Virus record (IMG/VR): IMGVR_UViG_3300005613_000166
Location: 1 to 39,918 of that record
DNA from: a virus
Strand: one strand, 5' to 3'
Length of the DNA: 39,918 bases
The notes under the pieces were generated by a model. It was not told the origin of the DNA. It made no database searches and saw only the letters and a list, made by a program, of their open reading frames with translations. A program made the position numbers and the translations under genes. This document shows positions 10,369 through 35,237 of the stretch, piece after piece; positions within the stretch are counted from its first letter, which is position 1; every line of letters starts with the position of its first letter.

Positions 10369-11304
10369 ATGCCTTCTACTGTACCAGTACATTTTGTCGA
10401 GCAATTTACCAGCTCGGTTCGACACCTTGCCCAGCGTAAGGGTTCGAAACTAGAGTCCACTATTATCACCAAGCCTCTCGTTGGCAACGAAGCTACTTTT
10501 GAGCAGCTTGGTTCTATCGAGGCCCAGGAAATTACAACCCGCCACGCGGACACTGTAATCCAGGAACGCGAACACATTCGCCGATGGGTCGGCAGCCGAG
10601 ACTTTTCGGTTGCAGAACTGTACGACTGGACGGATGAATACCGCCAGCTCGTCTCCCTTGGAAGCGAATACGTCAAGGGCCAGGCTTACGCCATTGGCCG
10701 CAAGAAAGACGACCTGATCGTTGCTGCATTCACCGCAGATGCAAAGTCTGACCGCACTGGCTCTACGACCGTTTCGTGGTCGCCAACGGCCTACAACGGC
10801 GGAAACTTTGGCACTGACCAACTCAAGATCGGTCACGACTACAACGAACTCGGCCAGCTTTCGAGCACCGGAACCGGCATGTCGCTTTTGAAGCTTCGTG
10901 CTGCTCGCCGAATCCTCGAAATGCGAGACGTTGACCGCGATCAGCCGTGGTATATCGCCATGACCCCCGCTCAAGAGCAAGACCTCCTGGCGGACCCCAA
11001 CCTGACGACCATTGAGCGAATGAATCTCCGAGCCTACCAGGCTGGCGAGCTTCCAAGCTTCTATGGCTTCAACTTTGTCAAGACTACGGCCCTCATCAAG
11101 ACTTCGACAATGCGTGCCTGCTGGGCGTACACGAAGAACTCGATGGCAATGGCAATTGGTAAGGAAATGCGTTCCGAAATGGATCGCCGTCCTGACAAAA
11201 ACCACTCGCTGCAAATCGCAACCTATTTTGCAGGCAACGCAACCCGGCTTGACGAGACTGAAATCGTCGAAATCGAGTGCGAAGAAGCACCCGCAACCTC
11301 GTAA
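10369..11304 (+). CDS. Major capsid protein
   Basis: This 311-residue protein follows the scaffold and has its own promoter, as expected for the most abundant structural protein. The start (VHFVEQFTSSVRHLAQRKGSKL) matches the pattern of a podoviral capsid family (HQFVQQF...V..L.Q...S.L). Further family-like stretches are RRWVGSRDFSVAELYDWTDEYR and the AYGRKKDDLIVAAF-like segment in the middle. It has a TGGAG ribosome binding site seven bases upstream. No separate decoration domain is fused. It should adopt the HK97 fold; this rests on family knowledge, not on a motif visible here. Confidence 0.88.
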   Translation: MPSTVPVHFVEQFTSSVRHLAQRKGSKLESTIITKPLVGNEATFEQLGSIEAQEITTRHADTVIQEREHIRRWVGSRDFSVAELYDWTDEYRQLVSLGSEYVKGQAYAIGRKKDDLIVAAFTADAKSDRTGSTTVSWSPTAYNGGNFGTDQLKIGHDYNELGQLSSTGTGMSLLKLRAARRILEMRDVDRDQPWYIAMTPAQEQDLLADPNLTTIERMNLRAYQAGELPSFYGFNFVKTTALIKTSTMRACWAYTKNSMAMAIGKEMRSEMDRRPDKNHSLQIATYFAGNATRLDETEIVEIECEEAPATS

Positions 11305-11339: not shown

Positions 11340-11795
11340 ATGGCAAATTTCAACGGAACCAACATGGCAATTATCAAGAACCCGCCTTCGGACGGGGAAA
11401 AGATTGCCGCTTCTCAGATTGGACCAAAGGTTCGATGCTTTATCGAGCAAGTGAACCTTGAAACCAACGACATCAATGACGCTGACACGATTGTTGTCGG
11501 CCAGCTTCCAGCTAGCAGCCGGCTGCTGAAAATTGAGATCATTGCAAACGGCAGCTCTGATTTGTCCGCTGCTGACGCGACGATTGGCGATGGAACCGAT
11601 GCAGACCGCTTTGCGGCACTGACGGACCTTCCAGCGGCCGGTTTGACCGTCGTTTGCGATGTGCCTGCCGTCAGCTTTGCTGGCTCCGAGGTCACCGCAG
11701 TGACAGACATCGTTATGACGATTGACGCAGCGGACCTCCCCAACGCAACTGGCGATGGCTTTACTGTCATCACCTACTACGCGGACCTCAACTAA
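11340..11795 (+). CDS. Probable head decoration or minor virion protein, 151 aa
   Basis: It lies 35 bases after the capsid gene, has AAAGG eight bases upstream of its ATG, and is followed by a terminator, so it is co-transcribed with capsid. The product is rich in Ala, Thr, Asp and beta-branched residues. It contains a repeated alternating pattern (DTIVVGQLPASSRLLKIEI, GLTVVCDVPAVSF, TDIVMTIDAAD), suggesting a beta-sandwich. It lacks charged helices and membrane segments. Position and composition fit a capsid decoration protein, but the family is not recognised. Confidence 0.7.
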   Translation: MANFNGTNMAIIKNPPSDGEKIAASQIGPKVRCFIEQVNLETNDINDADTIVVGQLPASSRLLKIEIIANGSSDLSAADATIGDGTDADRFAALTDLPAAGLTVVCDVPAVSFAGSEVTAVTDIVMTIDAADLPNATGDGFTVITYYADLN

Positions 11796-11803
11796 ACCCC
11801 AAC

Positions 11804-11838
11804 GACCATTTTCCTGCAACCGGGAAGATGGTCTTTTT
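11804..11838 (+). terminator. Rho-independent terminator abutting the next start codon
   Basis: GACCAT/ATGGTC arms extended by T/A and C/G pairs (one T·G wobble) give a stem of about 11 bp, followed by five T at 11834-11838. The next gene's ATG is at 11839. The hairpin covers the only purine-rich stretch that could serve as that gene's ribosome binding site. Confidence 0.75.
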
Positions 11839-12267
11839 ATGAGCTACTTCAAGTCCTACAATCCGAAAGCCTGGGGCGACGGGGTTGGCCCGTTGAAGTT
11901 CATCCACCCAGAGCTGGCTGAGTTCACCGAGGACGCGGAAGTTCTTGGGGAGTTTTTCCCTAAGGGCTACAAAACAGACGGCGGAAGTATCCCGGCAAAG
12001 CTTTGCGGCTTTATGCGTAGATTCGGCAAAGGGCTACCCGCTTTCCTTGTTCACGACAAAGACTACGATCCGCCTGAGATTGACGGCGTAAAGCAGCGAT
12101 CAAAGACTCGCAGGCAAGCAGACCGCGACCTATACTTGAACCTTAGACGCTGCGGAGTAGGCCCGGCAAGAGCAAGAATCGCCTACAGGGCGGTAAGAGT
12201 CGGCGGAAAGTTTCCTTGGGATGCCGGAACAAAAGCCGGAACCCTCAACGTGAAAGAAACGCAATGA
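11839..12267 (+). CDS. DUF1353 family protein
   Basis: The 142-residue product carries the DUF1353 pattern. TDGGSIPAKLCGFMRRFG is followed by AFLVHDKDYDPP and a later acidic/basic segment RRQADRDLYLNLRRCGVGPARARIAYRAV. The invariant DGxSxP and HDxxY motifs are both present. The family is common in tailed phages between head and tail genes and its role is not settled; some annotate it as a minor structural or lysis-linked protein. A terminator sits immediately before its ATG and may lower its expression. Confidence 0.8.
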   Translation: MSYFKSYNPKAWGDGVGPLKFIHPELAEFTEDAEVLGEFFPKGYKTDGGSIPAKLCGFMRRFGKGLPAFLVHDKDYDPPEIDGVKQRSKTRRQADRDLYLNLRRCGVGPARARIAYRAVRVGGKFPWDAGTKAGTLNVKETQ

Positions 12268-12990: not shown

Positions 12991-13449
12991 ATGAAAACAC
13001 TCGCCACCGCAATCATTGCTGTAATACTCGGGATCGTATCCATTGCATACGGCCAGGACGCCACCTATGTTTCCGCCGTACCGATCGAGGTCGAATATAT
13101 TGACGGCGACGTGGTTATCAGCCAGATCGGCGAGCGGCTGCTTGCAGTCACTGACAAGGGCTTGCACGCGAAGATCGACACGCTGATAGAGCGAGTCGCA
13201 ACACTGGAAGCGACCCTGCTGAGCCAGGCTGATTTGCAGCCATCCGGGCCGGCGGTCAACATCAACACCGCGAGTTACGACGAGCTTCTAACCGTACCAG
13301 GCGTTGGCCCGGTGAAGGCTGGCTCAATCATCGCCGAACGTGGTCAGGGCGGTTTGTTTGTTGATTGGGAAGACTTGCGGCAGCGAGTATCTGGTGTTGG
13401 TCCAAGCACGATCGCGGACATGCAGGCGGGAGGGGCGGTCCTTGAGTGA
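12991..13449 (+). CDS. Exported helix-hairpin-helix protein, ComEA-like
   Basis: The 152-residue protein begins with a signal peptide (hydrophobic core at about residues 3-20, cleavage likely near AYGQDA). A coiled-coil segment follows (KIDTLIERVATLEATLL, about 68-84). The C-terminus is a helix-hairpin-helix domain with the ComEA hallmark VNINTASYDELLTVPGVGPVKA and a second turn RVSGVGPSTIADM. ComEA proteins bind double-stranded DNA in the periplasm during transformation. An exported phage copy could handle DNA at entry or exit, or act in the envelope during lysis. It is in the late operon, seven bases after the preceding stop. Confidence 0.8.
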   Translation: MKTLATAIIAVILGIVSIAYGQDATYVSAVPIEVEYIDGDVVISQIGERLLAVTDKGLHAKIDTLIERVATLEATLLSQADLQPSGPAVNINTASYDELLTVPGVGPVKAGSIIAERGQGGLFVDWEDLRQRVSGVGPSTIADMQAGGAVLE

Positions 13450-13888
13450 GCAGGCCTACCAGCTTTGCGTAAACGTTGCCGCCAGCCGAAAAGGGTGGCT
13501 CGGTAAGTTCAGCATTGATTTCCTGGACGCAGCTCACGATGCCTACCTTGCTTGCCTGAAACGCGGCGGTTTTGATCGGTCACTTGTTTTATCTCGTGCT
13601 CACTTCGCAACAGTAGACTCAGTTAAGAAGGCGGTGAAACAACCTGCACCTTACGACATGAGCCACCAGGAAGGTGAAGAGTGCTTCCAAGACCCAAAGG
13701 ACCACGACTTCGACTCAGGACTTGAGTTCGAAGAGGTCAGGGAGTGGGTTGACGGGCAGTACCCTGGCATGGTCGATGCTTACATCAAGTCCAACGGCGA
13801 TCAGAAAGCTGCCGGCAAACTGCTTGGACTAAGCCAGCCCGCAATGAGCCAGAGACTCAAGAAATTAAGAGAGGCTTACAATGCTTGA
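13442..13888 (+). CDS. Helix-turn-helix protein, possibly sigma-like
   Basis: The start is TTG 13442 with GGAGGGG six bases before it; it overlaps the upstream stop. Residues about 25-60 (DFLDAAHDAYLACLKR, LSRAHFATVDSVKKAV) recall region 2 of sigma-70-type factors. The C-terminus has a clear helix-turn-helix (AAGKLLGLSQPAMSQRLKKL). A middle acidic stretch links them. It may be a late-gene transcription factor or a small ECF-like sigma factor. The overall match is weak and only the C-terminal DNA-binding motif is convincing. Confidence 0.65.
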   Translation: MSEQAYQLCVNVAASRKGWLGKFSIDFLDAAHDAYLACLKRGGFDRSLVLSRAHFATVDSVKKAVKQPAPYDMSHQEGEECFQDPKDHDFDSGLEFEEVREWVDGQYPGMVDAYIKSNGDQKAAGKLLGLSQPAMSQRLKKLREAYNA

Positions 13889-14033
13889 CCTGGCCCGCAC
13901 CTACTACTGGCACAGCAACAGCAGCGGCCCAAACGGTTGGGGCGGTAGCGAGGGTGCAATGAGCCAGACGGCTGTAGGGAACGCAGCAAGCCCGTTTGGC
14001 GAGATACCTTATACATATAAGGAGATGGTTTAA
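13881..14033 (+). CDS. Small Gly/Ser-rich protein, 50 aa
   Basis: ATG 13881 overlaps the end of the HTH gene by eight bases, and its stop forms a TAATG overlap with the PhoD-like gene. It is Gly/Ser/Asn-rich with aromatic residues (TYYWHSNSSGPNGWGG), a composition seen in small virion proteins. The family is not recognised. Coupling on both sides supports real translation. Confidence 0.5.
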   Translation: MLDLARTYYWHSNSSGPNGWGGSEGAMSQTAVGNAASPFGEIPYTYKEMV

Positions 14034-16246
14034 TGACGTGTCCTGTAGACGGCCAACTCAAAATAACCGACGCAATTGATGCAACTATTTGGAACCCCGC
14101 CGACACGTCCATCGGCGGAGGAACTGTCACGTTTGAGGCCCACCCCGATTCTGCGGCTTCAAGCAATCAGGTCATGGTCTTGAACGCCCCCGCAATCACA
14201 TCGGGAACACGAGACGAAAGCCGAAAAAGATACCGACTCCGCCGCGCGACATTCGGCGACCAGACAGTCGGCACGCCTACGTATGAAGACAACTTCAGCG
14301 AGCTTCGCGGCTATCACAAGCTGGCCATCAAAACACCGACCGCGAACCCGCCAGCCGACGGAGCGATCCAAGCGTTTTTTGCTGGAGACAACACCGCATC
14401 GGCGGTCTTTAACTTTGGATTCAGACGTAACGGAAGCTCAAGCAATTATCGCGTCACCACGTTTATAGCAGCGGGGAGCGTCAGCACTACCGCAACCGGA
14501 AGCAACATTAGCCTTGACGAAGAGTTCGAGCTTCGGTGGCACTTTAAAGCTTCCACCGGGTCCAATGGTATTCTTCGTGTAGACATCAAGCGGCAGTCCG
14601 ATGAGGACTGGGTAACGGTCATCAACATCACCAATCACGCCGAAGCAAGCGATATCGTGTTTGTGGAGATGCGCTGCCGGGCCGACACGGTGTTCTCTAA
14701 TGGAACCTACGACTTCGGCATTGCTCATGTTGAGATGGGACTTAACACCGATGCAGACTGGGCATCAATCGAAAATGGCTACGAAGACTTTAAGGCCTGC
14801 TGGGTCGAAGCGGCAAAGACCGACCGTGCATCGTTTAAGATCGCAGGCATCAGCCCCGACCGCTACCGATCGGGGACTCATTTCCGCATCAACTACGGCA
14901 CGACCGAATCGCTCGGCACCGCCACAGCACGCACGGCTCTCAAAGCATGGAATCCCGCAGGCGGTGACTACATGGCCCAAGCCGTGGAAGTTACCGCATT
15001 AACCGCAGGCACTCGGTACTATTGGCGAGTTGAGATCGGCACCGACTCGGCAACCACTTTGACAAGTGACATTTTTACTTTTAAGACCTCTGCCGCGTCG
15101 GGATCGTCGCTGACCGCTCACTTTGCTTCTTGCTCCGAAAATGATGGAAAGATGCACCCGCTTCGCGGCTACAAGCTGCTGGCGGACAATATTGATTTGA
15201 CTGATCTTGACTTTTCAGTCCATGCAGGCGATTGGTTCTACGAAGCGTCGCAAGCCGACGACCCAGACCGCTTTGCACCAGAGACAGAGGCCGAATATCG
15301 CGCATTTATGCAGGAAGCGTTTGAAGACCGCTACCGACCGGCATACATGCACAGCACAGTCGTCTACATCCACCCCGGCGATCATGCGGTCTATAACAAC
15401 GCACAAGGCGTCGCGGAAAAAGACGACAACGTGAGCCTCATCAAGAATCACCCCGACGTTGGGAGCAATTACAACCCATCGTCGTCTTCAACATACAAAG
15501 ACGTTTGGGACGCGGCGCTCGGCGTTTGGGATGCGTGGGTCGGTCTGCCTGTATACAACGCGGGGACGGGCTACACCGGCTACATAGACCACGGCAGCGT
15601 CCGCATTATCGCACTAGACAATCTATTGACCGGCGACTTCGACAACACGATATTCTTTGGCACAGCTCAAATCGACTGGCTCAAGGCCCGATGTGCCGAG
15701 GTGCCAGCTAACACCACAATCATTGTCGCAGCCGATACAGCATGGGGTCCGGTCAACGAACAAAACGAGTCGGTGAACGATGTCGCCCCGCTTGAAACTC
15801 AAGGATTTAACGAGTGGGCCGAGACGCCGGGGAACGTCGCTGATGGTGTGAAGATCATTATTATGGAGGGCGATACGCATCGAGGCTGGTGGGTCGGTAA
15901 GGCGTTTTACGACACAGATGGCAACCTCATGACCGACACGAACGTGCTTGCGTTCAACTCGCTGTTTGCACCCATCGGCCAGACAGGAACATTACCCGGT
16001 CCTCCTCGTGTGACGACCGATGAAACCGAGATATCGGCGTTTGACATGGACTGGTTCACGGTCGGCGAGATCAGCGTTACTAGCGGCGGCGTGCTAAACC
16101 TTTCGCAAAACTCAGCCCGCTTGCGTGCGTGGGGAGACGACGCTCAAGAGCTTGATACGTCCATCTCCATACGAGCCACCACCGGCGGCGGACTGCTGCG
16201 GCGTAACCACTACTTCATCGGGCAAGGCATGGGCCTCGGAATTTAA
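14033..16246 (+). CDS. PhoD-like metallophosphoesterase with N-terminal beta domains
   Basis: A 737-residue protein. Residues 1-250 look like a beta-sandwich (LamG/concanavalin-like, ending YDFGIAHVEMGL). Residues about 255-352 resemble the FnIII-like N-domain of PhoD (TALTAGTRYYWRVEIG). The phosphoesterase follows with FASCSEN (364-370), HAGDWFYE (397-404), HPGDHAVYNN (447-456) in place of the usual WDDHE-NN, and EGDTHRGWW (612-620). PhoD enzymes cleave phosphodi- and monoesters with metals at these residues. Flanked by late structural genes, with no signal peptide, it is probably part of the virion and may attack a phosphate-containing surface polymer. It may also be a free enzyme. Confidence 0.8.
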   Translation: MTCPVDGQLKITDAIDATIWNPADTSIGGGTVTFEAHPDSAASSNQVMVLNAPAITSGTRDESRKRYRLRRATFGDQTVGTPTYEDNFSELRGYHKLAIKTPTANPPADGAIQAFFAGDNTASAVFNFGFRRNGSSSNYRVTTFIAAGSVSTTATGSNISLDEEFELRWHFKASTGSNGILRVDIKRQSDEDWVTVINITNHAEASDIVFVEMRCRADTVFSNGTYDFGIAHVEMGLNTDADWASIENGYEDFKACWVEAAKTDRASFKIAGISPDRYRSGTHFRINYGTTESLGTATARTALKAWNPAGGDYMAQAVEVTALTAGTRYYWRVEIGTDSATTLTSDIFTFKTSAASGSSLTAHFASCSENDGKMHPLRGYKLLADNIDLTDLDFSVHAGDWFYEASQADDPDRFAPETEAEYRAFMQEAFEDRYRPAYMHSTVVYIHPGDHAVYNNAQGVAEKDDNVSLIKNHPDVGSNYNPSSSSTYKDVWDAALGVWDAWVGLPVYNAGTGYTGYIDHGSVRIIALDNLLTGDFDNTIFFGTAQIDWLKARCAEVPANTTIIVAADTAWGPVNEQNESVNDVAPLETQGFNEWAETPGNVADGVKIIIMEGDTHRGWWVGKAFYDTDGNLMTDTNVLAFNSLFAPIGQTGTLPGPPRVTTDETEISAFDMDWFTVGEISVTSGGVLNLSQNSARLRAWGDDAQELDTSISIRATTGGGLLRRNHYFIGQGMGLGI

Positions 16247-16263: not shown

Positions 16264-16605
16264 ATGGCAAACGATCAAAGCGGAATCATTCAAACTTTCA
16301 CCACAGATGTTACCAGTACCCAAAAGTTCCATGTGCCGCGTGGCGGAGTAATTGGGCTGGACCTTGTCCGAACAGCGGGAACAGGCACGATTGCACTGCA
16401 ATTCTCGCTTGACGGAACAACCTATGTTCCTGCGAGAGACGATGAGGGAGCCTTGATATCAGCCTCACTGGACGGCACGACCCAGCATTATTCAAAAAGA
16501 ATTCTTGCTCAAGTAGACACTTACTACCAGCTCGTTTCAACTTCAGTCGTGTCGGGCAGTGGCTCAATTAGTGCTAAACTAACCCGAATCAGAGCCGAGT
16601 TCTGA
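16264..16605 (+). CDS. Hypothetical structural protein, 113 aa
   Basis: ATG 16264 has AAGGA seven bases upstream. The product alternates hydrophobic and polar residues and is rich in Gly, Thr and Ser (TGTIALQFSLDGTTYVPA, ISAKLTRIRAEF), as in small beta-sandwich virion proteins. It lies between the PhoD-like gene and tail tubular protein A. No family is recognised; a minor head-tail or decoration protein is the best guess. Confidence 0.65.
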   Translation: MANDQSGIIQTFTTDVTSTQKFHVPRGGVIGLDLVRTAGTGTIALQFSLDGTTYVPARDDEGALISASLDGTTQHYSKRILAQVDTYYQLVSTSVVSGSGSISAKLTRIRAEF

Positions 16606-16619
16606 GTGAGGAGGCTTAA

Positions 16620-17231
16620 ATGGCCCTTGATACAGAAGTCCAAATATGCAACGCGGCACTGCTGCGAGCTGGAATTACCAAGCGAATCGAAACGCTTACC
16701 GACGATACGCCGGAGGCCGAAGCCTGCAATGCAGAGTACGCTTCGCAGCGTGACTTTCTGCTTGAAGATCACCCTTGGCAGTTTGCCGTTGTATATGAGC
16801 AGTGGGCTGCGTTGTCCGAGTCCCCATCGTGGTACTGGAAATATTTTTACGAGCTTCCCACGGACTTCATGTCAATCCTGAACCTTGAGGAAGAAGGCAT
16901 TCATTACGAAATCACTGGAAACGACAGGCTCGCAACGAATGAAAGCGGACCCCTGAAGGTGCGGTACGTCAAGCGAGTTGAAGACCCCACAAGAATGCCG
17001 CAAATGTTCAAGCAAGCCCTGGCTACAAAGCTTGGAGCCGTTTTAGCCATGAGCCTTACAAAGGACATGGAGCGGGCGGAAGTCTTGGAGAGAAAGTACG
17101 ACCGGCTCGTGGCTGACGCAAGATTTAACGATTCCCAGAGACGGTCTTATCAGCCTCTTGATGCAACTGCATTTATTGATGCCAGAAGAGGTGGCCCAGA
17201 GGTCATTGATTCGGAAGGCAACTTGAATTGA
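16620..17231 (+). CDS. Tail tubular protein A (head-tail gatekeeper), T7 gp11 type
   Basis: The 203-residue product matches the usual length of gp11-type adaptors (about 196). Family features are the start EVQICNAALLRAGI, the RDFLLEDHPWQFAV motif (a hallmark near residues 47-60), YELPTDFMSI and the C-terminal helices KQALATKLGAVLAMSLTK. It forms a twelve-subunit ring between portal and nozzle. GAGGAGG lies five bases before the ATG. It is followed immediately by the nozzle gene, as in T7. Confidence 0.9.
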   Translation: MALDTEVQICNAALLRAGITKRIETLTDDTPEAEACNAEYASQRDFLLEDHPWQFAVVYEQWAALSESPSWYWKYFYELPTDFMSILNLEEEGIHYEITGNDRLATNESGPLKVRYVKRVEDPTRMPQMFKQALATKLGAVLAMSLTKDMERAEVLERKYDRLVADARFNDSQRRSYQPLDATAFIDARRGGPEVIDSEGNLN

Positions 17232-17238
17232 GGACCAG

Positions 17239-20148
17239 ATGCCACGAGCAACGCACGTTCAAACTAATTTCACTGCTGGCGAAATCAGCCCGAGGCTCCT
17301 TGGCCGTTCGGACCTGAATCGCTATCAGAATGGTCTTGAAAAGGCTGAGAACGCAATCATCTACCCCCACGGAATGATTGCCCGAAGACCTGGAACAAAG
17401 TTTGTCGGGTTTACCAAGAACAACGGCGTCTCAAGGCTTATCCCATTTGAATACAACGACGACCAGGCTTACGTTATTGAGTTCGGAAACGAATACCTTC
17501 GCTTTTTCCGTGATGGAATTCCAATCACAAGAAGCATTTCAATAACGACAGCTTCCTGGTCAGCAGAGCTGGCTACCTACACCTCTACCGCCCACGGCCT
17601 TGCGGTTGGAGACTATGTCTCCGTCAGCGGGGTGGACCCGGTTGGATACAATGCGCAAGGAACAGTGGTGTCCGTTCCTGGGGCAAACCAGTTCACGCTT
17701 CGCGTTTTGACAAACCCTGGGAGCTATGTGTCTGGCGGCTCTGCCGCTGTCCCGTATGAACTGGCGTCTCCATGGACTTCCGCCGAACTGGCTGACATCA
17801 ACTACACCCAGTCGGCAGATGTCCTGTACGTGATGCACCCAAACTTTGCCCCAAGAAGGATCACACGAATCGGAGCTGATGTATTTTCGATCTCGACGTT
17901 TGAAATTAAAAACGGCCCATTTGAGCCTTTGTCGCAGACAGCAAAGATCAGGGTGTCCGTAACAGGGCATGACGCGACCGCCGTGGACAGCAGCTACATT
18001 ACGTGGGGCGGATCGGCCCAGGATTGGGCGGGGGACGAGGCTGGGGAGCACCTTTCGATCAAGGTGACAGACGGAAGTTTTTCGTTTGAGCACGGAACCG
18101 GCGTTGATGGGCCTAGCATTGGCCGTCTGATCAAATTTAAGAAAGGGGTCAACCCTTTCAAGGTTGGGCTTATCTATCAGACCATCAGTAATTCGCAGGC
18201 CTATATCTTGGTTCTCAGCAAGGGGCAGGCTATCACGACTTTTGTTGACTACGACCCTTCAACCGACGACACGGCAGAATGGTATCTGGGCGATTTCTAC
18301 GGATCGTTTAGCGACACAACCCACACCCGGGTCGAGGCTACAAACCTCTCCTTCAGCAGCCCGACCGTGACAATAACCACTGCAAGAAAGCATACGGTTG
18401 AAGTTGGAGACTCGATTACGCTGCAAGGCTCTGAGTCCACGACGGATATCAACGGGGTCTACACCGTGACAGGCACGCCATCGACGACGACGATTGAGGT
18501 CACCGCATCCGACCCGGGAACGGTAGCTTCAAGCGGAACCGTCATTATGCCCGCGTTTCTCTCCAACGATGCCCAGGAAGGGACGCCGGTTTCAATGAAC
18601 CAGCCGAAGGTCCCGTCATTCTTTCAACAAAGACTGTGGCTTGGCGGAACAACAAACAATGTGAACAGAATTTACGCTTCAGTCACAGGCGACTTTAACA
18701 ATTTTCAGGAGGCAGACCTGGATTCTTCTTATGAAACGCTGGACACAGACAGCCTGAACATCACGATTGACGATGACAGGGTCAATGTGATCCGATGGAT
18801 GAGGTCCGTTGCTCAGGGCCTTATTGTTGGGACCAATGGGGCTGAGTACACCATAGGCGGTGCTACAACTGGTTCCGTGGTTACGCCAAGCAGCGTCAGG
18901 GCTTTGAGGCAGACCGAGTATGGGTCGAAAGCCGGCGTAGAAGCCGAGCTTGTAGGCCGCTCGTTACTGTTTGCACACCGATCGGGAACTCGCCTGATTG
19001 AGCTTGCCTACAGCTTCGAAGCGGATCAGCAGGTTGGAACCGACATGAGTATTGTCAGCGAGCACTTGCTGAAGCCAGGCATTAAAGCGATGTCTTACCA
19101 GGAAGTGCCGGTCCAGACGATGTGGATTGTCCTGGACAATGGAGACGTGATTGGCTTTGTCTTTGAAAAGGAGCAGGACGTTTTGGGCTGGACCAAATGC
19201 AACTTCGGCAACAACGGGCTTGCCGAGTCTGTTGCTGTTATTCCTGAAACAGACGAAGATGCTCCGTGGTTCATCGTTAATCGCGGTGGAGTGCGAACTA
19301 TTGAAGTGATGCAGCCGCCGTTTGACGTTGATACGGAGCAGGTTGATGCGTGGTACGTGGACGCTGGACTGCGATTCGACGCCCGCAACACTGATTCTCT
19401 TGCGCTATTAAAATTCAACGCAACTTCATACGGAACCGGGAGCACAGGAACGCTCAGTGCGTCTGGAACGCTAGGCGGAGCAGCCTTCGAGCCTTTTGCC
19501 GGCGACTCGACAGACCTCGGTGAACGCTTCAGAATGTGGGATGCGGCTGGTAACTACTACGACCTTGAGATCACCGTGGACGACTCGGCCACTTCCTGCA
19601 CCGCCAGGGTAATTACATCTGGGTTTCCCGCCGAGCTTCAAAACACAAACACGTCCAGTTGGGCCGATTTGGTTAGCTCGATCACCGGATTCGATCATTT
19701 GGACGGGGAGGTTGTTAAGGTCTTTGCCGATGGCGGACACCATGAAGATGCCACCATCTCTGCGACCGGAACCCTCACGCTTAACGGGCAATATGCCGAG
19801 GTGGTCGCTGGATACGGGTACACAACGACAATCAAGAGCGTCCCGATCAGGGTCTTGCAGTATTTCACGGAAACAAGGGGCAAGTACAAGTCGCTATACA
19901 ACGCTGAGCTAAGGCTCTGGAAATCACTCGGCGGAAGCATTGACTTCAACGACCAGGACACGCAGATAGAGTACCGGCAAAGGAACGCCGCTCTGGGGCT
20001 GCCACCGGCCTTCTACAGCGGTCTGATTGAAGAAAGCCCTAGAAGCTCTTATGACGGAGAGGCCTTTCTCAGGGTCACTACGGACGCCCCAATGCCATTT
20101 AACATCCTCTCAATTGTGTACGAGATTGACATCAATGCCGCAATTTAA
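17239..20148 (+). CDS. Tail tubular protein B (nozzle), T7 gp12 type
   Basis: A 969-residue protein beginning with the nozzle/stabilisation-protein pattern (NFTAGEISPRLLGRSDLNRYQNGLE cut into conserved blocks; IIYPHGMIARRPGTKF). It forms the six-subunit nozzle through which DNA leaves. It is longer than T7 gp12 (about 790), with an added beta-rich part at about 115-180 and 380-460 containing two similar Thr/Val-rich segments (TAHGLAVGDYVSVSG and ARKHTVEVGDSITLQG). Those look like repeated small domains. TGAGGA precedes the ATG. The stop overlaps the next start by 14 bases. Confidence 0.9.
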   Translation: MPRATHVQTNFTAGEISPRLLGRSDLNRYQNGLEKAENAIIYPHGMIARRPGTKFVGFTKNNGVSRLIPFEYNDDQAYVIEFGNEYLRFFRDGIPITRSISITTASWSAELATYTSTAHGLAVGDYVSVSGVDPVGYNAQGTVVSVPGANQFTLRVLTNPGSYVSGGSAAVPYELASPWTSAELADINYTQSADVLYVMHPNFAPRRITRIGADVFSISTFEIKNGPFEPLSQTAKIRVSVTGHDATAVDSSYITWGGSAQDWAGDEAGEHLSIKVTDGSFSFEHGTGVDGPSIGRLIKFKKGVNPFKVGLIYQTISNSQAYILVLSKGQAITTFVDYDPSTDDTAEWYLGDFYGSFSDTTHTRVEATNLSFSSPTVTITTARKHTVEVGDSITLQGSESTTDINGVYTVTGTPSTTTIEVTASDPGTVASSGTVIMPAFLSNDAQEGTPVSMNQPKVPSFFQQRLWLGGTTNNVNRIYASVTGDFNNFQEADLDSSYETLDTDSLNITIDDDRVNVIRWMRSVAQGLIVGTNGAEYTIGGATTGSVVTPSSVRALRQTEYGSKAGVEAELVGRSLLFAHRSGTRLIELAYSFEADQQVGTDMSIVSEHLLKPGIKAMSYQEVPVQTMWIVLDNGDVIGFVFEKEQDVLGWTKCNFGNNGLAESVAVIPETDEDAPWFIVNRGGVRTIEVMQPPFDVDTEQVDAWYVDAGLRFDARNTDSLALLKFNATSYGTGSTGTLSASGTLGGAAFEPFAGDSTDLGERFRMWDAAGNYYDLEITVDDSATSCTARVITSGFPAELQNTNTSSWADLVSSITGFDHLDGEVVKVFADGGHHEDATISATGTLTLNGQYAEVVAGYGYTTTIKSVPIRVLQYFTETRGKYKSLYNAELRLWKSLGGSIDFNDQDTQIEYRQRNAALGLPPAFYSGLIEESPRSSYDGEAFLRVTTDAPMPFNILSIVYEIDINAAI

Positions 20149-28671: not shown

Positions 28672-29349
28672 ATGGCCATTCAAACTACAGTTCGCAAGGT
28701 CCAGTACGACGGCGACGGCACAACAACGGTGTTTGATGTCCCATTCCCGTTTGTAGACAACGCTCACCTGTTTGTACTGCTTTACGATCCTGTGACTGAG
28801 GTAGAGACTCCCCAGACGATCACGACGCACTACACGATCAGCGGCAGTGGCCCAAGAGCTACAGCCGAGGTGACAATGGGAACAGCCCCGCCCGCCGGCA
28901 AAGAGCTTCTCATTTATCGAGACACCGAGATCATCCAGCCTTACGAGCTGTTTGATAACGAGGCCCAGACAGCCACAAACGTCGAAGCTTCGCTCGACAG
29001 GCTCACCATGATCGCACAGGAGCTTGAGGAGGGCCTCTCGCGGCTTGTGCAGCGGAACATCGTGCTTGTGTCTGAGACGATCCCCTGCTCCAACACGGCG
29101 GTCACAGATGTGTTCCTGGCTCGCATTACGGGAGCTCCGACAGGGACCGATCACCCGTTCACGGAGCATCAGCCTATCGCAGGCTCTACTTCCAACCAGG
29201 CAATCTCTGGCGGGCGAAGCGGGACCTTCAAGTTTGTTGACCTGTGCGAGACTGACAAGACCAACGACTACGTATTTGTGATTCAAATGCTGGACACCTC
29301 GAACAATGTTGTGTACCGAAGCTGGCAACCTGCGGAGACTGTAGCTTGA
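28672..29349 (+). CDS. Tail fibre/adaptor with T7 gp17-type N-terminal domain
   Basis: The first 125 residues match the virion-anchoring domain of T7-type fibres: YDGDGTTTVFDVPFPF, TAPPAGKELLIYRDT, ASLDRLTMIAQELEEGL. The rest (about 130-225) is a short Thr/Ser-rich beta region ending with a domain that includes FKFVDLCETDK. At 225 residues it is much shorter than a receptor-binding fibre, so it is probably an adaptor or short spike. AAGGA precedes the ATG. A second fibre with the same anchor follows. Confidence 0.85.
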   Translation: MAIQTTVRKVQYDGDGTTTVFDVPFPFVDNAHLFVLLYDPVTEVETPQTITTHYTISGSGPRATAEVTMGTAPPAGKELLIYRDTEIIQPYELFDNEAQTATNVEASLDRLTMIAQELEEGLSRLVQRNIVLVSETIPCSNTAVTDVFLARITGAPTGTDHPFTEHQPIAGSTSNQAISGGRSGTFKFVDLCETDKTNDYVFVIQMLDTSNNVVYRSWQPAETVA

Positions 29350-31085
29350 GCGTTTTAACTACATCGTGGAAAGCAGAATTCACCGGAGACGGAGCCACCA
29401 CCACTTTCCTTTGCGCATTCCCCCTGATGCAAACTGAGGATTTGCTGGTCTACGTCAACGATGTCCTCATGAGGGCCAACCGTGACTACACGCTGTCAGG
29501 GGTGGTTTACACAGAAAGGCATACGGTCGCTTCTGGCTTCTCTGTCGTAATGGCGACTGCTCCCGCCAGCGGGGCCGAAGTCTACATTCGACGCAAGACG
29601 CCGAGAGAGAACCAAACAGTGCTTCATGGTGGCGACCGCTTCAGCCTGCCTGTTTTCGAGAACAACTACGACCGGCTCGTGATGATCTACCAGGAGATCG
29701 GAGGCCTTATTCTTGAGGGGTTCCAAGGTCCAATCCCAGAGACAGTCCCTCGGCGAGACTATGAGCCTCAATCTTCTGGCTTTTTCCCTGCGAAGGTTAT
29801 TGCCGGCCCTACTGACGGGTTCTACACGCTCAGGGCGGCGATCCCGTCTGATCTCGGTTGGGACACTACGGCCCTTCCAGTGCTCACTGAGCAGGGGGCT
29901 GAAATCAACAGGCGGCTTGACATTGCCATTGGCGACACTGTTCTGGTTCTGCCTGTCGCAGATACAAATGGCCAGGACGCATGGAGGTTTGTCGCCAATC
30001 AGGCCTGTGAAGACGCTGGCGGCGATCCGCCTTATTCAGGAGATTTCTTTGTCATTGCCCGGTGTGACAACCCGGATGTGGACGAAGTGGCGTGGGTTAG
30101 GGACGATGAGTTTGATGTTGGCGATGTTTTTATGCTCAACGGCATCTGCTACATCGTTCAATCAGGTGCGGTAACCGGCATTGCCCCAGAGCTTGTGGTT
30201 CGCGTTGCAGACACGACTGCTTATGCCGACTGCTCAACATGCGAAGCGGCAATGCCTGACCCGGACGCTCCGGACCCGCCGATAACGGCCAATGTCTTTA
30301 GAAAAATGGCCAACTGCCTTGACGATTCAACGGACGAGTATTCCTTGCCAGTTGAATACTTTGGCGTTCCCACGAACCATGACTTAACCAAAATATACGA
30401 AATACCAGACGGCTGTTACTACGTCTCTGAAGAAGAAGAAAGTTCTCCCTCCAACCCGCTGCTCCCAATTCACGCGGGAACGGTTTTTGACAATTGTGAA
30501 GAGTGCGGCTGCAACCCTGTTGCAGAGATTGGGCATCAATGCACCAACTGCGATGACAGCACTCCGCAGCAATACCAAATAACGGTTAGCGGAATCATTG
30601 GATGCTTGTGTGCAGAGCTTACTGGAGGAACCTGGTCTTCTGTTAACGCTTCTGCCTTGAATGGAACATTTACTTTAAATCAGTCTACTGACCCTGGAGG
30701 CAGATGCCAATGGGAAGCAACTATTCCAAACGCCGTAACTCATACTGTGTACGACGACTCTTCCTGCACTACTATTGATGGGGTTGATACTTTTGATGTA
30801 GAAGTGTTTTTTGTTAAAACATCGGGCGGCAACTGCTTTGTTATTTTAGAAGGAGCAAGAAAAAGCCGGGCGGGGGTTTACGCGGGGGGCGGGCTGAGTA
30901 TGGTTTTCTTTTTTAAATTTCAATTAAGTTTTTCAGACGGTGCATTAGAACTTTGTTCTGTAGTACCAGTCTTTGAAGATTTTAGGATGGTAAATGGATT
31001 TTGCGGAGAATCTTCAGCAGATTCTACAAACAACTCTGGGGTAAGAGCTGCTTACGGCGGAACCGCTACGGTGGTGTGTTTATGA
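29346..31085 (+). CDS. Second tail fibre, Cys-rich receptor-binding part
   Basis: A TTG start overlaps the previous stop. Residues 1-130 repeat the gp17-type anchor (FTGDGATTTFLCAFPL, TAPASGAEVYIRRKT, NYDRLVMIYQEIGG). The remaining 450 residues are unusual for a fibre. They contain many cysteines, including CSTCEAAMPDPDAP, CEECGC and CTNCDDSTPQQYQITVSG, suggesting metal sites or disulphides in a beta-rich receptor-binding part. DNA after about 30600 is clearly richer in A/T than the upstream structural genes, a sign of domain exchange. It overlaps the next start by ATGA. Confidence 0.82.
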   Translation: MSVLTTSWKAEFTGDGATTTFLCAFPLMQTEDLLVYVNDVLMRANRDYTLSGVVYTERHTVASGFSVVMATAPASGAEVYIRRKTPRENQTVLHGGDRFSLPVFENNYDRLVMIYQEIGGLILEGFQGPIPETVPRRDYEPQSSGFFPAKVIAGPTDGFYTLRAAIPSDLGWDTTALPVLTEQGAEINRRLDIAIGDTVLVLPVADTNGQDAWRFVANQACEDAGGDPPYSGDFFVIARCDNPDVDEVAWVRDDEFDVGDVFMLNGICYIVQSGAVTGIAPELVVRVADTTAYADCSTCEAAMPDPDAPDPPITANVFRKMANCLDDSTDEYSLPVEYFGVPTNHDLTKIYEIPDGCYYVSEEEESSPSNPLLPIHAGTVFDNCEECGCNPVAEIGHQCTNCDDSTPQQYQITVSGIIGCLCAELTGGTWSSVNASALNGTFTLNQSTDPGGRCQWEATIPNAVTHTVYDDSSCTTIDGVDTFDVEVFFVKTSGGNCFVILEGARKSRAGVYAGGGLSMVFFFKFQLSFSDGALELCSVVPVFEDFRMVNGFCGESSADSTNNSGVRAAYGGTATVVCL

Positions 31086-33345: not shown

Positions 33346-34014
33346 CTACTCCTTGAAGGAATTGGTGTTAAGAGCTGCTTCGGCGACTGCTTCTGCCTTC
33401 TCTTGGGGTAAGCGGGCGAACTCCTTTAGCTCGCCCATAACTGATTTGATTGCGGCCTGAATGTGTTCAATGGCCTGTTCCTTGTTGAACTTGTGTTTCT
33501 TGACAACCGAAGCAAAAAGGTCGGCTGCGGCTTTTTGAGGGTTGTAAGCCTCGGTGACATTGGCCTGGGCCTTGTCGTAAAGAGCAAGGCCAAAGCGGTC
33601 GCCGAACTTCATGGCAGCACGCTTGAGAGCGTCTGTCTCGGCTTCCTTGGCTGCAAACTCATGGGCCTCGGCGATTGCGTTTTCAGGCATACTTGACGAG
33701 CCTCCGCCGATGCCGTCGTGACTGATAGTGGTGCTGGCCTTGTCAGTGCCAATGCAGGCAACGATCGTGCAGCGTGCAATGTAATAGGGCTGCACCATCT
33801 CAACGCCCTTGTAATTTTTGTACTTGCGAGTCTCTACGTGTTCAAGGCCTTCAATGCGATGGCTCCATTGAAAGTCAAACGCAGTGTTGAGTTCCCTGAT
33901 TACGTCGTGGCCTTCAAGATAGGAAAGGCCAGCTTTGGCTCCAACGTTGTCGCCAAACTTTTTGACGCGACCGCCATCAAGCGGCTTTTGTAATTCTGAA
34001 ATTGGGGTAGGCAT
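33346..34014 (-). CDS. Rad52-like single-strand annealing protein
   Basis: The 222-residue product has the Rad52/Rad22-type core: LSYLEGHDVIRELNTAFDFQW near residue 30, a beta segment (YYIARCTIVACIG), DGIGGGSSS and then EAHEFAAKEAETDALKRAAMKFGDRFGLALYD, the most conserved stretch of the family. The C-terminus is a helical tail. It anneals complementary single strands together with SSB and the YqaJ exonuclease. ATG 34014 has GGAG five bases upstream, and the stop is two bases before the SSB start. Confidence 0.9.
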   Translation of the reverse strand: MPTPISELQKPLDGGRVKKFGDNVGAKAGLSYLEGHDVIRELNTAFDFQWSHRIEGLEHVETRKYKNYKGVEMVQPYYIARCTIVACIGTDKASTTISHDGIGGGSSSMPENAIAEAHEFAAKEAETDALKRAAMKFGDRFGLALYDKAQANVTEAYNPQKAAADLFASVVKKHKFNKEQAIEHIQAAIKSVMGELKEFARLPQEKAEAVAEAALNTNSFKE

Positions 34015-34025
34015 GTAGTCTCCGA

Positions 34026-34670
34026 TTAAAAGAGTATTTCAACGAGTGCCTCGCCCTCTTTGGGCGGGGTCTTGGGTTCAATGTGGTTGGTCCAGAACGA
34101 TTCGACCGTCTCAAGAAGCATTTCGCCGATGCCCTGCTGGTAGGGGATGCGGTAGACAAGCGTGCCGCGTCCCTGCATGTCGAGCAGGCCGATAAAGCCA
34201 TCGCTGATCTTGCTGACATCGGTCGTAACGACTGTGAGGTGCATCTGCATTTGCAGTTGGTAAAACACATGCAGCGGGACTTCGTCGGAGCCGCCTTTGC
34301 CGTAGTCCTTGTGATACGGCATTTCTCCGCTGTAACCGATCGTCTTGATGTCAATCGGTGCGAAGTCGAACTTCCTACGCTTGTAAGAGCCGTTGACAAG
34401 GATGGCATCCAGGGTAGCTCCTGCGTGTCCTTCTCGAAGGTGCGTTTGGTAATTGGAATAGGTTGACTTGAAATATTCCTCACAAAAGAAGTTGAGAAGG
34501 CCTATTTCAAGGTGATTGCCGAGGCTGGCTGATTTTGAAGTCTTCCTATCTTCGCTCAGGCCCATCTTTTCATTGAAAATGTCAAGGGGGGTTTTGAAGG
34601 GGTGGCAATTAAGAAGTGCCGCAACTTCTGATGCCCCGATGAATTCAGAGCGATTCGTGTTATTATTCAT
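34026..34670 (-). CDS. YqaJ-type viral recombinase exonuclease
   Basis: A 214-residue protein starting at ATG 34670. The YqaJ pattern is visible: GASEVAALLNCHPFKTPLDIFNEKMG, SASLGNHLEIGLLNFF, HAGATLDAILV and PIDIKTIG. The Glu of GNHLE, Asp of TLDAIL and D-x-K of IDIKT form the PD-(D/E)xK site that digests double-stranded DNA 5' to 3'. The Rad52-like gene lies next to it, a lambda Red-like pair. The frame extends upstream to 34946, but that would run inside the opposing terminase gene. The ribosome binding site is weak. Confidence 0.88.
   Translation of the reverse strand: MNNNTNRSEFIGASEVAALLNCHPFKTPLDIFNEKMGLSEDRKTSKSASLGNHLEIGLLNFFCEEYFKSTYSNYQTHLREGHAGATLDAILVNGSYKRRKFDFAPIDIKTIGYSGEMPYHKDYGKGGSDEVPLHVFYQLQMQMHLTVVTTDVSKISDGFIGLLDMQGRGTLVYRIPYQQGIGEMLLETVESFWTNHIEPKTPPKEGEALVEILF
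34658..34666 (+). promoter_or_regulatory. Extended -10 promoter for the terminase small subunit
   Basis: TGTTATTAT: extended TG followed by -10 TATTAT at 34661-34666, 34 bases before ATG 34701, with no good -35. It lies within the first codons of the oppositely oriented exonuclease gene. The leader would carry GAGGA seven bases before the ATG. Confidence 0.45.
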
Positions 34671-34692
34671 GGGAAGTTTCACAAGTTTGAGG

Positions 34693-34701
34693 ATTGTACC
34701 A
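34693..34701 (-). promoter_or_regulatory. Extended -10 promoter for the replication operon
   Basis: On the minus strand TGGTACAAT gives an extended TG and -10 TACAAT, with a poor -35. Its expected start point is about 20 bases before ATG 34670. It overlaps the start codon of the divergent terminase gene and shares the TGGTANNAT form with the divergent promoters at 4456 and 4493. Confidence 0.45.
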
Positions 34702-35237
34702 TGGCCAGAAAAAAAGAAAAGACTCTTGTTCCAACTGATCCGCAGTGGACCTTTGCTTCTGTTTATGTGAGAACACAGTCGGTCCTGGAGGCTTTTAAGG
34801 CAGCTTATCCGAAGCATACCGGCAAGCCAATGCACAGAATTCGGATGATGGCCAAGCGGCAGCTTACTCAGCAGGGCACTCAGATCGCCATCAAAGAGCT
34901 GACGAACGATGTGAGGACTGCTGAGAAGCTGACCGTTGAAGGTCACATGGCCGAACTGAGAAAGATCAGGGACGCTGCTTTTGCTGACGGGAAATATTCT
35001 GTTGCCCGACAGGCTGAAGTTGATCGAGGCAAATGTGCTGGATTTTACGTAGAGCGTTCAATGAACATGAACGTCATCACGAGTCCGCAGGAACTGAAGC
35101 TTCAGTTTGAGGCTCTTCTTGAGCAGTATCCTCAGGCAAGCAAGTTTCTTCCTCAGCTTGGAGGTGGAACGTCACAGGATCAAGAACAAAATCGTTTAGA
35201 GATAATTGAGCAAACGGTAGAAGAGGTCGATGCTTAA
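34701..35237 (+). CDS. terS: Terminase small subunit
   Basis: A 178-residue protein. The N-terminus has a helix-turn-helix-like part (SVLEAFKAAYPKHTGKPMHRIRMMAKRQLT). The family hallmark follows: EKLTVEGHMAELRKIRDAAFADGKYSVARQAEVDRGKCAGFYVER. The C-terminus is acidic. It recognises the packaging site and hands DNA to the large subunit. It is the only + strand gene between 31423 and the window end and lies about 10 kb from TerL even across the joined ends. Its last 161 bases overlap the E1-like gene tail-to-tail. GAGGA is seven bases before ATG 34701. Confidence 0.85.
   Translation: MARKKEKTLVPTDPQWTFASVYVRTQSVLEAFKAAYPKHTGKPMHRIRMMAKRQLTQQGTQIAIKELTNDVRTAEKLTVEGHMAELRKIRDAAFADGKYSVARQAEVDRGKCAGFYVERSMNMNVITSPQELKLQFEALLEQYPQASKFLPQLGGGTSQDQEQNRLEIIEQTVEEVDA

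Follow-up and report, generated by a model that had tools for sequence, protein, structure and literature searches.

The protein encoded at positions 14033-16246 (+ strand) of the window, by which we mean the whole 39.9-kb virus record analysed here, is a distant PhoD/purple acid phosphatase (PAP)-fold protein whose homology stands well above chance, and its gene occupies a slot between capsid and tail genes that is filled by unrelated proteins in related phages. From these observations we infer, with a probability of about one half, a metallophosphoesterase module that is carried on a T7-like virion, encoded in an exchangeable cassette and active on a phosphate-bearing envelope polymer.

The window phage and its PhoD-like protein

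The window comes from a T7-like podovirus related to HTVC010P; its major capsid protein (MCP) shares approximately 33% identity with the counterparts in HTVC010P-type pelagiphages. Genes for terminase, portal, protease/scaffold, MCP, tail tubular proteins A and B, internal virion proteins and gp17-type fibres occupy the + strand, and early genes the - strand, including primase/helicase and adjoining annealing-protein-like (33346-34014) and RecE-like exonuclease (34026-34946) ORFs. Two consecutive ORFs of 225 and 579 aa (28672-29349 and 29346-31085, overlapping by four bases) each start with a T7 gp17-type N-terminal fibre domain and appear to form a tandem of fibre attachment domains. A Gram-negative host is suggested by the internal core proteins, which are of T7 type, and by the hosts that HTVC010P relatives infect.

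The PhoD-like gene, identified from the ORF list, profile and fold, encodes 737 amino acids (80.2 kDa, pI 4.7) from an ATG start with a ribosome-binding site, AAGGAG (14019-14024), 8 nt upstream; its codon usage resembles that of the other genes of the phage and the ORF is real. Profile and predicted fold place the PhoD-like metallophosphoesterase domain at aa 357-656 (15101-16000), preceded by an Fn3/Ig-like domain (aa about 262-354; 14816-15088) of the type found at the N-terminus of PAP and PhoD proteins. In isolation this piece matched Pfam PF16656 (8e-6) and PF16655 (0.02), both sub-threshold, and the predicted fold agrees; a PAP_N match in the protein also fell just under its cut-off. 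An N-terminal Ig-like PhoD_N/PAP_N domain can thus be recognized from sub-threshold Pfam matches plus fold, so that of the N-terminal beta-sandwich domains described in an earlier, sequence-only reading of this DNA one is supported, with residues 1-260 left without assignment. The region formed by aa 1-261 (14033-14815) is beta-rich with pLDDT mostly <50, no relatives of these ~260 residues were found in the ORFs searched, and they gave one odd sub-threshold Pfam match, Top6b_C; the region is a candidate attachment or binding part. The absence of a signal peptide, also noted earlier, holds: neither a signal peptide nor a TM-like stretch was seen, the N-terminus having no hydrophobic stretch, and the Tat export signal of PhoD is missing.

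To place the protein, 80 viral and 79 cellular PhoD loci were collected, and a profile built from 151 PhoD sequences excluding the window protein scored it at 63.4 bits over residues 279-654, the best of 1000 composition-matched shuffles reaching 7.7 bits. Pfam PhoD (PF09423) gave 21.3-24.1 bits, below its cut-off of 27, and there was no PHROG match. Searching phages and plasmids by tblastn returned no match (only chance ones at E values up to 10), motif patterns recovered no relatives in viral or genome contigs, and the pattern HPGDHxxYN hit one contig, which was unrelated. Against the proposed reading, the collections searched contained no close homologue with which conservation within a subfamily could be assessed. 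At approximately 20% identity, the protein sits on a very long branch of the PhoD tree, where its placement is uninformative. Structure prediction, suggested earlier as a check, returned the PhoD/PAP fold, with matches to PAPs (Z 24.4; Foldseek 5e-11) and to Bacillus subtilis PhoD (2yeq; Z 23.1 over 398 residues) that are PhoD-informed, since the AlphaFold2 model used an alignment with 73 PhoD relatives. Most of the Fn3 and catalytic regions were modelled with good confidence, and it is the failure of the first 260 residues that lowers the mean pLDDT to 56.8.

Metal ligands and the altered calcium site

The metal ligands of B. subtilis PhoD are C180, D207, Y210, D265, D266, N271, N272 and D436 (PMC4223295); we took a ninth position, H438, from the alignment and checked the reference sequence against 2yeq. 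In the window protein the motifs run in the order read previously from the sequence, FASC(367), GDWFY(399-403), HPGDHAVYNN(447-456) and GDTH(613-616). By alignment, Cys367 (15131-15133) corresponds to the Fe ligand Cys180, Asp400 and Tyr403 of GDWFY (15227-15241) to D207 and Y210, and Asp614 and His616 of GDTH (15869-15880) to D436 and H438, giving a complete Fe3+ set (Cys/Asp, Asp, Tyr, His) in C367, D400, Y403 and H616. The block described as changed is indeed so: WDDHEVENN has become HPGDHAVYNN (15371-15400), in which profile alignment puts Gly449 at the Ca ligand D265 with Asp450, His451, Asn455 and Asn456 kept. Four of the five Ca ligands (D265, D266, N271, N272, D436) are therefore retained, and eight of the nine ligand positions overall (C367, D400, Y403, D450, N455, N456, D614, H616). 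The sequence-only reading had held that loss of metal ligands would speak against it, and such a loss is found at this one position.

The assignment of Gly449 rests on the profile HMM and on spacing, with an ungapped 30-residue YR..DH interval (read from the sequences) and a 51-residue GDxxY-to-DH-block interval, the same as in a common class of phage PhoDs. A MAFFT alignment of all PhoDs had instead set WDDH against EKDDN and was rejected, as the profile HMM and both spacings put WDDH on PGDH. The alignment given to AlphaFold2 was restricted to sets in which MAFFT agrees with PGDH, and the model therefore carries no independent weight here.

The PAP motif GNHE has Gly at the position of PhoD D265, and a two-metal site is conceivable in the window protein, its Gly matching that motif. 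Its catalysis is nevertheless uncertain and, as judged from sequence, is not secured because one Ca ligand is Gly; the D265A substitution in B. subtilis PhoD abolished pNPP hydrolysis (PMC4223295), which counts against the proposed phosphoesterase. Among 150 PhoDs other than the window protein, 69 of the 77 viral and 72 of the 73 cellular ones have Asp at this position, a difference in non-Asp residues (8/77 versus 1/73; Fisher 0.03) that is biased, as the scan patterns differed slightly between the two sets. All eight viral exceptions carry Ser (YMPSDH, YTWSDH, YMWSDH, HTYSDN and YGPSDH; PSDH, WSDH or YSDN in loci L121, L127, L134, L136, L142, L147, L180 and L183) and are spread over the tree, so that Gly449 resembles a recurrent drift found mostly in phage PhoDs. 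Most of the eight also carry an N-terminal extension of 220-240 aa, like the window protein.

These data bear on the alternative that fares best, namely a protein that is virion-borne and catalytically dead, its PhoD fold with a damaged Ca site having been reused as a receptor- or polymer-binding module. Gly449 at an essential Ca ligand, the very long branch and the excess of Ser at this site in phages all argue for such a binder, but the other ligands, including C367, Y403, D614 and H616, have been kept at approximately 20% identity when a pure binder would need none of them, and the G-D-H block is similar to GNH, the two-metal motif of functional PAPs. We regard a dead binder as a serious but rather unlikely explanation.

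A variable slot between capsid and tail genes

Structural genes do lie on both sides of the PhoD-like gene, as the sequence-only reading had it. The slot is bounded upstream by the MCP gene (10369-11304, +; phrog_3437, 5e-58) and downstream by that of tail tubular protein A (16620-17231, +; phrog_394, 7.7e-45), beyond which follow tail tubular protein B (17239-20148, +; phrog_376, 5.9e-163) and the internal virion proteins. Both genes could be located in 49 HTVC010P-type relatives, and in 47 of these the interval from MCP to tail tubular protein A measures 0.17-0.94 kb; it is 5.3 kb in the window, and 5.6 and 5.8 kb in the remaining two relatives, L017 and L006. Between the window and L017, its closest sibling (portal 71%, MCP 73%, tail tubular protein A 65%), the small ORFs flanking the slot are conserved, including a 113-aa protein directly 3' of the PhoD-like gene (16264-16605, +; 45% to its L017 counterpart), whilst the PhoD ORF itself is replaced by an unrelated 452-aa protein. 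The latter begins with a DUF1565/beta-helix-type segment and has PHROG matches to hydrolase and tail families (its AlphaFold2 model reached a pLDDT of 31), and the slot of L006 (ct9yY11) holds a pectate-lyase protein (PHROG, 1.4e-25). Because unrelated beta-helix/pectate-lyase proteins fill the slot in both long-interval relatives, it is most simply read, across three genomes, as an exchangeable cassette for a virion-borne surface enzyme.

The end of the PhoD-like protein, GGGLLRRNHYFIGQGMGLGI (16184-16243, +), tentatively resembles the end of the unrelated L017 slot protein (GLLRRNHYFIGQGMGLGI in the window protein, GLLQRLRYAISGIGIGV in that of L017). This likeness was the best among 959 ORF ends and was equalled in 0 of 3000 shuffles; the full-length comparison was not significant and phmmer did not recover the match. 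The shared peptide may tentatively be viewed as a possible docking tag.

The PhoD-like gene shares its strand with the tail genes and is tightly spaced with them, which together with the lack of a signal peptide favours a virion protein. Against this, the ORFs directly 5' (12991-13449 and 13340-13888) look regulatory or are without an assigned role, rather than structural, and the phage has gp17-type fibre genes of its own. The second of these ORFs carries an HTH inside the late operon, and at the equivalent place in L017 (15669-16214) there is a sigma-70 region 4-like match. Two further features lie closer to the capsid gene. An ORF soon after it (11722-12267) matches the tail assembly chaperone family phrog_1158 (5e-16), which is odd for a T7-like podovirus, and a strong hairpin with a T-run (11804-11833) follows the capsid gene and one small ORF. 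The T7 late terminator sits near the place equivalent to this hairpin.

PhoD proteins of other phages are likewise frequently associated with particle genes. In a non-redundant set of 54 viral PhoD ORFs, the PHROG annotation 'phosphodiesterase' was matched by 53, with additional matches to tail protein (12), minor tail (5) and two tail fibre families (2 and 2), and many tail and fibre families are represented among the neighbouring genes. Thermobifida phage P1312 has the PhoD domain within a 1096-aa gene that directly follows the tape measure gene and a tail gene, and in Nostoc phage YongM the PhoD gene adjoins one annotated as capsid fibre, an arrangement also seen in Anabaena phage Elbi. LC-MS/MS of concentrated phage detected the YongM protein with 35% coverage and a score of 1132, the seventh highest of 32 proteins and in the range of sheath, tube and capsid, with likely contaminants scoring ~19; the authors of that study placed it under DNA anabolism (PMC8875764). 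A cyanophage mutant that had lost a single base of a gene called 'alkaline phosphatase D' was viable (PMC11356776); the deletion coordinate falls inside the YongM gene and, if the mutant is indeed of that phage, the protein may be dispensable in the laboratory.

The tail-module PhoD of P1312, however, has no mass spectrometric coverage in the row of the virion table as printed (PMC4569894), which weighs against a virion-borne enzyme. It favours instead a late non-virion enzyme, working at or after lysis in the clearance of debris or biofilm polymers, or on intracellular phosphoesters, since a late gene position is no proof of incorporation. With the YongM homologue detected in particles and other phage PhoDs matching tail families, we consider this improbable. 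Least probable is an auxiliary metabolic gene helping the infected host to gain phosphate: ecological surveys list phoD among phage genes for P acquisition and one soil phage PhoD was active on pNPP (PMC10987575), but phosphate supply, which the sequence-only reading had entertained, is disfavoured here because the protein has no export signal, the gene belongs to a late structural unit, no promoter-like site was found directly upstream of it, and relatives hold polysaccharide-type enzymes in the same slot.

Proposed function and comparison with known systems

By analogy with these phages a role at the virion surface, as enzyme or as binder, is likely. For the virion-borne phosphoesterase that we favour, we envisage attachment to the particle through the beta-rich N-terminal region, the C-terminal tail or both, leaving the Fn3-PhoD part to act on a phosphate-bearing envelope polymer such as a phosphorylated capsule, LPS or exopolymer, whose cleavage during adsorption would expose the true receptor. 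With Gly in place of a Ca ligand and a PAP-like G-x-H block, the metal site would probably be reduced (Fe plus one divalent metal), or the enzyme slow. The earlier proposal of a virion depolymerase for a phosphate-rich polymer is partly supported: slot exchange, tail-family matches and the YongM particles make a virion surface module the best reading, while Gly449 weakens the case for depolymerization. A teichoic-type polymer, which that reading named for assays, is an unlikely target, given the Gram-negative hosts both of HTVC010P relatives and of T7-like phages that have internal core proteins; phosphorylated LPS, capsule or exopolymer are better candidate substrates than wall teichoic acid.

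More speculatively, and we think this doubtful, phage virions may repeatedly recruit PhoD surface phosphodiesterases, some of which would independently lose D265 (to Ser or Gly) and so pass from a three-metal phosphatase to a depolymerase that has two metals, like PAPs, and attacks envelope polymers containing phosphate. The window protein, from a T7-like podovirus with a Gram-negative host, would then be the most diverged case. Position, tail-family matches and the YongM proteome suggest virion parts aimed at the cell surface as the products of at least some phage phoD genes, probably including this one. If true, this would change the reading of viral phoD abundance, now counted as phosphate supply (PMC10987575), and the recurrent change at one metal ligand poses a simple biochemical question.

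Compared with B. subtilis PhoD (2yeq, PF09423), the window protein shares the fold, the N-terminal Ig/Fn3 domain, the Fe ligand set with Cys and the equivalents of D266, N271, N272, D436 and H438, but differs in D265, in having no Tat signal and a 260-aa N-terminal extra, in scoring under the Pfam cut-off and in being encoded in a phage structural cluster. With the PAPs of kidney bean and sweet potato it has in common the fold (Z 24), the Fn3 domain, the Tyr-ligated Fe site and the Gly at the D265 position. It lacks, however, their second-metal histidines: of the PAP His2Asp1Asn1 set (quoted in PMC4223295), one His is replaced by Asp614 of GDTH, the other has no candidate, and Asp450 stands in place of Asn. 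The tail-associated GDPD phosphodiesterases of enterococcal phages (PMC10194240) are similarly virion-module phosphodiesterases predicted to attack envelope phosphodiester polymers, but have an unrelated fold and target Gram-positive teichoic acid. Closest in kind are the phage PhoD-domain proteins (phrog_24476 phosphodiesterase and phrog_13624 hydrolase; YongM, Elbi, P1312 and Streptomyces phage Tomas), often encoded in or beside tail or capsid-fibre genes, although in the Streptomyces phage the gene is found in a non-structural region rich in tRNA genes; the window protein is set apart from them by the missing PHROG match, its very long branch, its T7-like podovirus context and N- and C-terminal parts of its own. 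The occurrence of PhoD domains among the particle genes of phages is known but little described, and the window protein is a new, very diverged variant.
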